DNA of 64,000 nt. Origin: Tribonema minus. Taxonomy: Eukaryota > Sar > Xanthophyceae > Tribonematales > Tribonemataceae. A program made the translations under genes and the position numbers. Of the stretch, positions 43,755 through 52,321 are shown one piece after another; position 1 is the stretch's first letter; each line of letters starts with the position of its first letter. The notes beneath the pieces are model-generated. The model did no database searches and was not told the origin of the DNA. It worked only from the letters and a program-made list of their open reading frames with translations. Where the stretch lies: positions 124,001 through 188,000 of the forward strand of contig JAFCMP010000125.1 in NCBI GenBank assembly GCA_017506865.1, given 5' to 3'.

Positions 43755-44982
43755 CTATGGCGGCGCCGCGTGGTCGCCAGCATGCGCTGCGCTTCTGCCG
43801 CCGCCCCTGCCCATGGTGCCCTTGAAGCCGCGCCCGCCGCGCCCGCGGCCACGGCCGTACCCCCGCCCCCACCCACCGTGCGCATGCGATTGCGGTGCTG
43901 CGGCGACGGCCGCGGTGCTGCTCGCAGCAGCGGCGCGCTGCAGCAGCTGCTCTTCGAGCGCCTGGTGGTCCAGCTGCCGCTCAGTGGGCTCGCGCTTCTG
44001 AAGTTGGGGCTGAGGCAGCGGGGGCGGCGGCGCAGTGTGCTGCTGCTGCTGATCTGCCTGCGCCAGCACCTGCAGGAGCTGCTGGCGCTCCGTTGGTGGA
44101 TGGCTGGGATGCTGCTGCTGCTGCTGCTGCTGCTGTTGATGCGGCTGCTGGTGGTGATGCTGGCGCAGCGGCGCCTGCTGCTGCTGCTGCTGCGGCAAAG
44201 GCACTGCGGAATGCAGCGCCGGCTGTGGCGTGCCAGCAGCTGCGGTTCCTGCAGGGAAGCCCTGCTGCTGCTTCCCCTGCTGCTGCGCTGCACCAGATGG
44301 CGGCGCACGCTTGACGGCGTGCGCGTAAAAACACCGGTCGCCCCTGAAGCACTTGCCCACCGGGAAGTACTTGCAGTGGATCTGCTTCATCGCCGCAGTG
44401 CCACTGCCGCGGCTGACTGCGTCGCTGTCGTTTGTGGGCACGGGCACCTGCTGCCGTGGCAGCGATGATGGCTGCGGCGCGCTCCGCTCATTGGCTGGCG
44501 GTGCTGCGGCCGGTGCAACAGATGTGGTGGTGCTGATGGGTGCTCGCTGAGGTGCGGCAGAACCGAAGCGCTCATGCTCACATGGTGCTGTTGGCGCATC
44601 GTACACCCGCTGCTGCTGCTGCTGCGCCTGTGGCTGCTGCGGCTGCACCGTGCCTTGGCTTTGTTGCTGCTCCTGGTGCTGCTGCTGGTGGTGGTGGTGC
44701 TCAGCGCCGATGGCAGCAGCAGCGGCAGCAGCAGCGGCCAAACTACCAGCACCATGAGGCGCTGCACCAGCTGGAGGCTGCGCGCCAGTGTCGTGGGAGT
44801 ACTTGCACTTGCTGCCGTTGAAGCACTTGCCCGTCTTGCTGAAGAAGCACTTGCAACGCTGAGGTGCGCCAGTACCGCTGTGTGTTTGCTGGCGGGCAAG
44901 TGCCTGTTCGACGTGTGGCCGCTGCTGCTGTGCCTGATGCTGCTGCGGCTGCACCGCGCCTGGACTTTGTCGCTGTTCCTCG

Positions 44983-45015
<33 letters not shown>

Positions 45016-51000: not shown

Positions 51001-52321
51001 GCGGCGGCGGCGCTCGCGGCGTCGCGCTCCCGCCGCGCGCGCACTGCGTCCAGCGCCTCCCGCGCCGCGACGCGCACGCCGTTGACGCCCAACTTGCCGT
51101 TGAGCTCGTCCAGCAGCTCGTAGAGCGCGCGCTCGTCGCGCGCCGCCTCCGCCGCGCGCACGCGTGCGTGCAGCCGTGCGGTTGCATCCGCCGCCGCCGC
51201 CTGCGCTGCGTAGCGCGCCTCCTCGTCCTCCTGCCTGCGCCGCTGCTCCGCTGCGTAGTCGCGCCGCGGCGGCGGCTGCTGGCGCGCACCGCCGCCGCCG
51301 CCGCCCCCGCCGCCGTAGCCGAAACCCCCAAACCCGCCAAACCCCCCAGGAAACCTGACTGGGACTTTGACGCGGACGTAGCGGCCGCCGCCCAGATGCA
51401 CAACGTGCGTCTCGTAGAAGAAAAAGTCATCGTACATGTCGTAGTAGTCTGGATCATCGTCGTCGTCATCCTCGTAGTAATAGCCGCCGGCGCTGCCACG
51501 GTGGCCTCCGCTGCTACCGCTGCTGGGGGCGCCTGCGGTCGCGTCGCCGCCGTCGGGGGCATATTGCTCCGGGTTTGAGATGCGGTGGTAGGCCGCGCTC
51601 ACGCGCTGGAACTTTTCCTGGGAGATTGAGGCAGACAGAGAGCAGGTTGTGGGGCAGACGTGAGCCGGCCGCAAGCTCAATCGAGCAGGCACAGGCGCCG
51701 TGCAGATTATTTGAGCTGACATGAGGCGGAAATGCAGCTTCGCAAAGCACCAGTGGCACCTGCCCCATGTATGTTGTGGTTTGTTTATGACAATGTGGTG
51801 CAGCATGTAACCTATACTCTCTGGTCACTCCAGTGCGATGAGCTGCACAGGTGCTCATGGCTTAAAGTCGCAACGGTGACTTTTTTTGGGGGGGGGGACA
51901 GCAAAGCTTCTATTCGAATGCGTATTGGTTGACACAGGCGATGAAGCCCATTGATGCACACAACCAATCATTTCGGCAAAGCCCAGCAGGGGCATCACAG
52001 AAACCTATGTAAGGTTCATGACAGGAAGCAAGGGAGTAGCATGGGTTGCCCCTCGTAAGGTTGCAGTGGACCTGAACACCTGGCACCATTGCTGCGCGCT
52101 TATGCGACTGTCACGAGCAGCCAGAGGGTCAGCTGCACGACTGCCACTGTGCGCAGCATTGGGCGCGTACACGGCGGCTGACTGACCTTGGCGTTCGGGT
52201 CATCTGATTTGTCAGGGTGACACTTCAGCGCCAGCCTCCGAAAAGCGGTTTTCACAACGTCCTGGCCCGCCCCATACGAGACCTCCAGCACGGAGTAAGC
52301 TTCCCGCAGAGTGAGCTTCAT
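43755..52321 (-). CDS. J domain - helical repeats - NYN nuclease - CCCH zinc-finger fusion protein, five exons
   Basis: Exons 52187-52321, 48005-51617, 47423-47677, 46365-46492 and 43755-45884 close perfectly in phase: 2086 residues. Residues 1-62 are a J domain (REAYSVLEVSYGAG, HPD in ALKCHPDKSDDP, helix IV KFQRVSAAYHRIS). An Asp/Gly-rich linker follows. Residues about 190-1090 are 14 helical repeats of about 57-65 residues (pattern RLEAAVASQDEAELAAAL). A Q-rich segment leads to a NYN/PIN-like domain at about 1237-1440: VHLLVDANSVLAG, GGVDEVFAAAALVHAE, VTLVVVANDVSARALGAE, GDGVYLAVLQALHARCGVEV. Four CCCH fingers follow (near 45610, 45150, 44830 and 44350), e.g. CKYFPVGKCFRGDRCFYAH, separated by long Gln-rich tracts, with an RG-rich end (GYGRGRGRGGRGF). 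NYN plus CCCH occurs in Regnase/MARF1-type RNA nucleases. A Hsp70 co-chaperone J domain on the same chain is unusual. RNA decay or RNP remodelling is the likely area (inference). Confidence 0.85.
48350..51200 (-). repeat. 14 tandem protein-coding repeats within exon 2
   Basis: The units encode two helices each, with the conserved core L..A..S.DEAEL..AL..A and then L..LC.AA..VL.A.R, joined by Ala-rich spacers of variable length. Units near the 3' end of the exon are most alike. Those near the J domain are more diverged and richer in Arg/Lys. Confidence 0.85.

Follow-up and report, generated by a model that had tools for sequence, protein, structure and literature searches.

Can one polypeptide both recruit Hsp70 and bind RNA, and perhaps cut it as well? 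Stressed cells must refold proteins and also deal with the mRNAs that encode them. Most known links between the two tasks are made by separate proteins that meet in granules. The question is raised by a predicted five-exon gene on the minus strand of a 64,000-nucleotide stretch (hereafter the window) of contig JAFCMP010000125.1 of the alga Tribonema minus. With a probability of roughly 0.4, we read this gene as encoding a single spliced protein of 2,086 residues, a class C J protein expected to deliver Hsp70 to RNAs that its CCCH zinc fingers would hold and a likely PIN/NYN-like nuclease would cut. If this is true, a J domain is covalently attached to an RNA-binding, probably RNA-cutting module, so that a link between folding and RNA decay becomes testable in one gene. 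Such a direct link would be uncommon.

Gene model and recognisable domains

The initial annotation, made from the letters of the window, had proposed exon and intron coordinates with matching phases and a 2,086-residue product. Joining and translating the five exons reproduced all of these exactly, giving 6,261 bases with phases 0/0/1/1/0 and no internal stop. All four introns were of the GT..AG type, with ordinary donor contexts (AAG|GTCAGT, CCG|GTAAGC, CAG|GTGACT, GAG|GTACGC) and CAG at every acceptor. The G+C content per codon position was 0.62/0.40/0.71 in exon 1, 0.83/0.58/0.80 in exon 2, 0.82/0.66/0.87 in exon 3, 0.88/0.49/0.84 in exon 4 and 0.76/0.55/0.74 in exon 5. The corresponding values by phase for introns 1 to 4 were 0.55/0.56/0.55, 0.58/0.64/0.62, 0.61/0.60/0.60 and 0.57/0.62/0.52. 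The spread between codon phases was thus 0.21–0.39 in exons and 0.01–0.10 in introns. Within exon 2, the second codon position was the poorest in G+C in 12/12 segments of 300 bases, and its frame ran for 1,293 codons from stop to stop, the longest open frame among the six frames of the window (the second longest, 729 codons, was that of exon 5). Given this strong codon-phase bias in the exons, its near absence from the introns and the long open frame, the exons look like coding sequence and exon 2 looks like one coding exon. Splicing of exons 2–5 into one protein is predicted. The lengths of introns 2, 3 and 4 (window 45885–48004, minus strand) are all divisible by three, and each carries an in-frame stop if retained.

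The J domain and its HPD motif, both claimed at the outset, were readily confirmed. The Pfam DnaJ profile (PF00226) matched residues 8–63 (E = 7.2e-17; 61.7 bits against a cut-off of 27.8), and the HPD motif, at residues 35–37, separated helices II and III. In the PDB, 54 distinct sequences matched the domain at E ≤ 0.001, the best being DNAJB12. Because the Pfam match runs through the exon 1/2 junction (residue 45/46), this splice is very probably correct. The glycine–phenylalanine-rich linker behind the J domain resembles that of class A and class B J proteins. Neither the class A zinc-finger region nor the class A/B beta-sandwich had a Pfam match at E ≤ 1 in residues 1–140, exon 2, the putative nuclease stretch or exon 5. 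With a full J domain and neither of these regions found, the protein is, by definition, most likely a class C J-domain protein. A preprint (PMC12248113) describes the motif between helices II and III as necessary for stimulating Hsp70 ATPase activity, and the extra domains of class C J proteins as diverse and suited to special contexts.

Four CCCH fingers and an RG-rich end had also been claimed, and both were recovered. Four motifs were present, PF18044 matched four stretches (E = 7.7e-12; 45.1 bits against a cut-off of 24.6), PF00642 matched three (E = 3.6e-8; 33.6 bits against 20.5) and a run of RG lay at the C-terminus. The fingers are embedded in glutamine (Q)-rich low-complexity sequence. 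A 147-residue stretch near the end of exon 2 contained 22% Q and 12% proline (P), and residues 1500–2086 in exon 5 contained 19% Q and 10% P, whereas the repeats of exon 2 contained 5.5% Q and 0.8% P. Since this Q/P-rich style starts in exon 2 and continues in exon 5, it ties the two exons together.

The 14 helical repeats described between the J domain and the fingers were likewise found. A repeat profile started from six seeds and then iterated gave 16 matches, two of which were alanine runs (i-Evalue 1) and were excluded. The remaining 14 had i-Evalues of 1.4e-16 to 2e-21. The aligned repeats shared two invariant columns and a mean column identity of 55%, and most were separated by alanine-rich links of variable length. 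With three repeats as the query against the alga's own 158-Mb genome, all five matches at E ≤ 0.001 among the best candidates scored fell in this gene. An AlphaFold model of four repeats, run on an alignment of 11 overlapping segments of the same repeat region, reached a mean predicted local distance difference test (pLDDT) of 93.1 and a predicted template modelling score (pTM) of 0.59. In this model, inner long helices of 43, 41 and 35 residues alternated with short ones of 10–14. The repeat region is therefore predicted to be a stiff beaded rod of small three-helix bundles linked by long single helices. Helix lengths suggest a gain of ~4 nm per repeat and 50–60 nm overall, an estimate derived from a model that is uncertain in its long-range shape. 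Comparison of the repeats with solved structures gave no convincing match.

This architecture could also be explained by chaperoning in cis, with RNA binding as the main job of the protein and the J domain and rod mainly keeping its own Q-rich, granule-forming C-terminal half soluble. Runs of up to nine Q residues, and a Q content of 19–22% in the low-complexity parts, are consistent with such a role. However, the long stiff spacer predicted here would be odd in a protein meant to chaperone its own tail, although dimers could manage this, and the polyglutamine-aggregation antagonists DNAJB6 and DNAJB8 are described as working without a functional J domain (PMC12248113). We consider this explanation the least probable of those weighed here.

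A further question is whether the exons belong to one gene. Two adjoining genes, one for a J-domain and repeat protein that stops within intron 2 and one for a Q-rich CCCH protein that begins near exon 3, would account for the same domains. Retention of intron 2 would end exon 2 after 20 more codons, and the frame of exon 3 stays open upstream into intron 2, with ATG codons and some phase bias (G+C 0.70/0.57/0.65). The exon 2–5 joints, moreover, are predictions from genomic sequence, which also counts against the single-protein reading. The bias of this upstream extension is nevertheless below that of exon 3 itself, and over its full length intron 2 shows little difference between phases (0.58/0.64/0.62) and has canonical ends (GTAAGC..CAG). 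The Q/P-rich style is continuous from exon 2 into exon 5, and a CCCH protein that began with exon 3 would miss the first strand and first aspartate of the putative nuclease, which are supplied by the last 12 codons of exon 2. A split into two genes thus appears improbable to us.

For a single gene, the claim of one large exon from the end of the J domain to the first proposed NYN strand held, as a single open frame leads from helix III to VHLLVDANSVLAG. The further claim that no guessed splice underlies the fusion was half right. The J domain (helix III onwards) and the repeats share one exon with the first proposed nuclease strand (residues 1238–1249), but the remaining acidic candidates and all of the fingers lie in exons 3–5. 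As exon 2 carries only that first strand, the nuclease fusion depends on three splices. The joining of J domain and repeats to the CCCH fingers holds, via ordinary-looking introns. Coordinates are collected in Table 1.

Table 1 Features of the predicted J-domain and CCCH-finger gene; positions are those of the window.
Feature	Position	Strand	Residues	Remarks
Exon 1	52187..52321	-	1-45	Start codon; J-domain helices I and II; HPD codons 52211-52219
Intron 1	51618..52186	-		569 bases; within J domain; read-through meets a stop
Exon 2	48005..51617	-	46-1249	Helix III, G/F/Y/D-rich linker, 14 repeats, Q-rich linker, first putative nuclease strand
J-domain helix III part	51564..51617	-	46-63	Pfam DnaJ match (8-63) crosses the splice
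Linker, acidic/tyrosine-rich, then glycine-phenylalanine-rich	51273..51563	-	64-160	From sequence
14 helical repeats	48564..51167	-	196-1063	Core ~48 residues; start-to-start spacing 51-87
Q/P-rich low-complexity linker	48045..48485	-	1090-1236	
First strand, likely PIN/NYN-like domain	48005..48041	-		VHLLVDANSVLAG; candidate metal ligand D1243
Intron 2	47678..48004	-		327 bases; in-frame stop if retained; ends GTAAGC..CAG
Exon 3	47423..47677	-	1250-1334	KVYALLVRG, second strand of likely nuclease
Intron 3	46493..47422	-		930 bases; in-frame stop if retained
Exon 4	46365..46492	-	1335-1377	GVDE (D1338) and VTLVVVAND (D1368)
Intron 4	45885..46364	-		480 bases; in-frame stop if retained
Exon 5	43755..45884	-	1378-2086	Ends with the stop codon
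C-terminal part, likely PIN/NYN-like domain	45726..45884	-		GDG with D1384; VEVWAW
CCCH finger 1	45567..45623	-	1465-1483	C-x7-C-x5-C-x3-H
CCCH finger 2	45120..45182	-	1612-1632	C-x9-C-x5-C-x3-H
CCCH finger 3	44793..44855	-	1721-1741	C-x9-C-x5-C-x3-H
CCCH finger 4	44319..44375	-	1881-1899	C-x7-C-x5-C-x3-H
RG-rich C-terminal end	43794..43880	-	about 2046-2074	From sequence

The putative nuclease stretch

Residues 1238–1445, between the Q-rich linker and the first finger, had been named a NYN nuclease domain. The stretch contains hydrophobic runs ending near acidic residues, read by eye as the series VHLLVD(1243), KVYALLV, GVD(1338)E, VTLVVVAND(1368), GD(1384)G and VEVWAW. This order fits that of the PIN/NYN fold, and the acidic residues lie near the ends of likely strands, where PIN/NYN enzymes keep theirs. 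D1243, D1338, D1368 and D1384 occupy plausible metal-ligand places, of which profile alignments pair D1384 and not D1368. Finger 1 starts about 20–35 residues past the stretch.

To compare the stretch with the NYN family, we assembled 50 bacterial proteins (30 loci from 100 genomes, 79 of which had a match, and 20 fetched regions) and removed 11 that lacked a simple first-strand motif, leaving an alignment of 39. Global hhalign against this alignment scored 17.4, which was reached by none of 200 shuffles (mean 3.1, standard deviation 2.2, maximum 12.7). When ten other 220-residue segments were aligned in the same way, the two overlapping the stretch scored 14.4 and 10.1 and the other eight scored 0.9–5.5. 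Both the global alignment and hmmsearch paired GDG (D1384) with the GDGD of the family, and GVDE was aligned with the start of its D-containing helix. A PIN_4 profile was also used (matches in 26/60 genomes, 22 of the 26 sequences retained); its local alignment scored above all 120 shuffles, although it covered just 22 columns (the VVVAND strand).

Several results weigh against a nuclease here. At E ≤ 10, the stretch had no Pfam or NCBIfam match to NYN, PIN or Zc3h12a families; this included the NYN profile PF01936, whose cut-off was not reached, and the Regnase/RNase_Zc3h12a profile PF11977. The only names returned were DsrH/TusB (E = 0.057–0.87), under their cut-offs. Local hhalign against the NYN alignment gave 19.4, a score equalled by 2/200 shuffles, and our own NYN model gave the stretch only 3.9 bits in hmmsearch. 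A genuine NYN protein encoded elsewhere in this genome scored 98.4 in the same local test, so the profile works and the stretch is far from the family. The score against a Regnase-type profile, made from all four bacterial sequences found (matches in 4/200 genomes), was reached by 32/120 shuffles globally and 52/120 locally, and the global PIN_4 score was reached by 90/120. In its first motif (DAN), the stretch has a PIN-like and not a NYN-like (DxxN) spacing. D1368, in the AND motif, was unpaired in both profile alignments; because both pair D1384 with GDGD instead, the by-eye choice of D1368 as the acidic residue of exon 4 may be the wrong one. A PDB sequence search with the stretch returned two matches up to E = 10, the best being a tape-measure protein (E = 0.11).

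A NYN assignment as originally worded was therefore not confirmed, although the label is plausible. In the proposed profile search, the J domain and CCCH fingers lay above their cut-offs and NYN was unmatched, with a global alignment better than 200/200 shuffles and a local one equalled by two. We rate a PIN/NYN-like fold for residues 1238–1445 as probable rather than assured, a rating slightly lowered by the unpaired D1368 in both alignments. That the stretch is a working nuclease has lower odds and is the least certain part of the reading.

One protein with no nuclease would accommodate these results. The gene would then encode a J-domain ribonucleoprotein (RNP) chaperone that remodels or dissolves RNPs, as DNAJC17-type proteins may do. 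The sequence linking exon 2 to finger 1 would be a degenerate domain, PIN-like or of another alpha/beta type. The missing family matches at E ≤ 10 agree with this, as do the local NYN, the Regnase-type and the global PIN_4 alignments, none of which was better than every shuffle. The global NYN alignment, above 200/200 shuffles, argues the other way, as do the acidic residues near likely strand ends, which are placed as in PIN/NYN enzymes. A J domain paired with an RNA-binding domain has a parallel in DNAJC17, which combines it with an RRM (PMC12248113). We regard this alternative as somewhat less probable than the preferred reading.

The true NYN protein used as positive control is encoded by a separate, clear LabA-like gene on contig C88 of the genome (PF01936, E = 5.2e-13), for which two partial matches were obtained, as though an intron lay between them.

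Precedents and a possible mode of action

A J domain on one chain with CCCH fingers, or with a PIN/NYN-like domain, was not found among the matches listed in the open-licence literature. MARF1 (limkain b1) and other NYN proteins resemble the predicted protein in joining a NYN/PIN-like domain (here likely) to RNA-binding modules. MARF1 itself has RRM and LOTUS (OST-HTH) domains. In contrast, the NYN profile is unmatched here, and neither RRM nor LOTUS/OST-HTH had a Pfam match at E ≤ 1 in four pieces of the model.

The nearest precedents found were Sacsin (J and HEPN domains) and DNAJC17 (J domain and RRM). Sacsin, from animals and slime moulds, combines Hsp90-like modules, a DnaJ domain and a HEPN domain (PMC3710099), and thus, like the protein predicted here, has a J domain and an RNase-superfamily domain (here only likely) in one chain. 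However, the HEPN domain of Sacsin is all-helical and metal-independent, the part of its description cited here includes no CCCH fingers, and neither Hsp90-like modules nor HEPN had a Pfam match at E ≤ 1 in the four pieces of our model. An RNA-level response to unfolded protein has been hypothesised for Sacsin (PMC3710099), for which the present gene, if read correctly, would offer a second case beside J and HEPN. DNAJC17 and Cwc23, both class C, share with it the order of J domain, long helical region and RNA-binding domain (PMC12248113). DNAJC17 differs in having an RRM in place of CCCH fingers and in being far smaller (its deletions end at residue 304), and the cited part of the source names no nuclease in it.

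Regnase-1 to -4 (ZC3H12A–D) offer a further comparison. Their CCCH fingers recognise RNA and the adjoining PIN-like NYN domain cuts it via an aspartate-held metal (PMC12982082). The predicted protein is similar in that a likely PIN-like domain stands closely ahead of a CCCH finger, with acidic candidates near strand ends. It differs in having no PF11977 match or profile support, in its four fingers and in the added J domain and rod. As predicted, the protein is a class C J protein with unusual partner domains and not categorically new, and it rests on one predicted gene.

On the preferred reading, the CCCH fingers and RG tail would hold RNA or RNPs and the Q-rich stretches would admit the protein to RNA granules. 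The J domain would then trigger ATP hydrolysis by Hsp70 beside aggregated or granule-held RNPs. Proteins would be stripped from the RNPs and the freed RNA cleaved by the likely nuclease, the nuclease step being the least certain. The rod would set the distance between the end that recruits Hsp70 and the end that binds RNA, holding the two apart. From the domain content we infer Hsp70 recruitment and RNP remodelling. In its fullest form, which we offer tentatively, the protein would be a single-chain chaperone-coupled ribonuclease, made of a J domain, a 50–60 nm rod, a PIN/NYN-like nuclease and four CCCH fingers, that pulls Hsp70 onto stalled or aggregated RNPs and destroys their RNA at the same time. 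Such an algal system would combine protein refolding with mRNA decay in a single molecule and would have evolved independently of Sacsin.

The direction of control might also be the reverse, with RNA binding controlling the J domain, or Hsp70 might be unimportant. In the preprint (PMC12248113), stimulation of the Hsp70 ATPase by the J domain of DNAJC17 is inhibited by its RRM, class C J proteins are able to act without Hsp70, and those tested retained at least about half of their activity with a mutated HPD. This also tells against a role that depends on Hsp70.

Homologue searches and genomic neighbourhood

In none of the collections searched, which were apparently poor in eukaryotes, did we find a believable relative, a further point against the preferred reading. 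Within the alga's own genome, four of the eight matches to the nuclease stretch were its own exons and the other four had E values of 0.36–2.2, with nothing else below 0.3. Two protein-database searches gave weak negatives. For the nuclease stretch and finger 1 within the full model, 7,980 candidates were scored and none reached E ≤ 1; for the stretch within a 673-residue piece lacking the last C-terminal part, 7,997 were scored and none reached E ≤ 10. Both lists were probably filled by alanine-rich words, and proteins outside the length filter escape such searches. The J domain, searched as part of the full model, yielded six candidates, none at E ≤ 0.001. Viral contigs contained four stretches matching the pattern of the nuclease stretch and 29 matching that of residues 1–140, none of them a relative. 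Phages and plasmids searched with the nuclease stretch by tblastn gave no match at E ≤ 1.

Among genomic contigs, 122 stretches matched the pattern of the nuclease stretch and one locus passed (43% identity, E = 1e-5). It was rejected as a relative, being a frame antisense to what looks like the gene of a hydrogenase or NADH-dehydrogenase subunit, and it had no Pfam match at E ≤ 1. The 398 bacterial genomes of one phylum gave matches at E ≤ 0.01 in nine, the best (3.2e-4) being this same frame.

A likely divergent gene (window 52652–53987, plus strand) starts about 330 bases upstream of the J-domain gene. Its frame at 53676–53984 matched Pfam NIF, an NLI-interacting-factor-type phosphatase (E = 2.2e-7), and its frame at 52652–52930 matched no Pfam family at E ≤ 0.01. 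A ubiquitin-like part seen by eye ahead of the NIF frame would, presumably, mean a UBLCP1-type phosphatase of the C-terminal domain (CTD).

Elsewhere in the window, two similar ankyrin-repeat proteins lie close together (41406–42581 and 36869–37981, both plus strand), as if by local duplication, the former with an F-box (Pfam E = 7.7e-5). One long open frame (34359–36437, minus strand) encodes a TPR/HAT-repeat protein (TPR_2, E = 1.6e-38; PRP39-type HAT, E = 4.7e-15), perhaps an HCF107-type plastid RNA-processing factor. An Armadillo-like repeat fragment (39100–39864, minus strand) matched ARMC5 weakly (E = 8.5e-5, below the cut-off). A likely class I/II aminotransferase occupies 59258–61311 (plus strand), with a match at 59258–60136 (E = 2.9e-11) and a second piece recognised by eye.

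Outside the window, two contigs (C334 and C112, about 2 Mb) carry decayed rbcL fragments that read like form ID and are likely plastid DNA moved to the nucleus. The genome also gave 92 exon-level matches to chlorophyll-binding (light-harvesting) proteins, and together with the rbcL fragments these make an alga whose plastid is of the red type very likely. One of the light-harvesting matches, on contig C79, was nearest to the LHCI chains of PDB 9vfj (616–1,048 residues) and then to ACPI chains, and two further light-harvesting matches neighbour it on the same contig.

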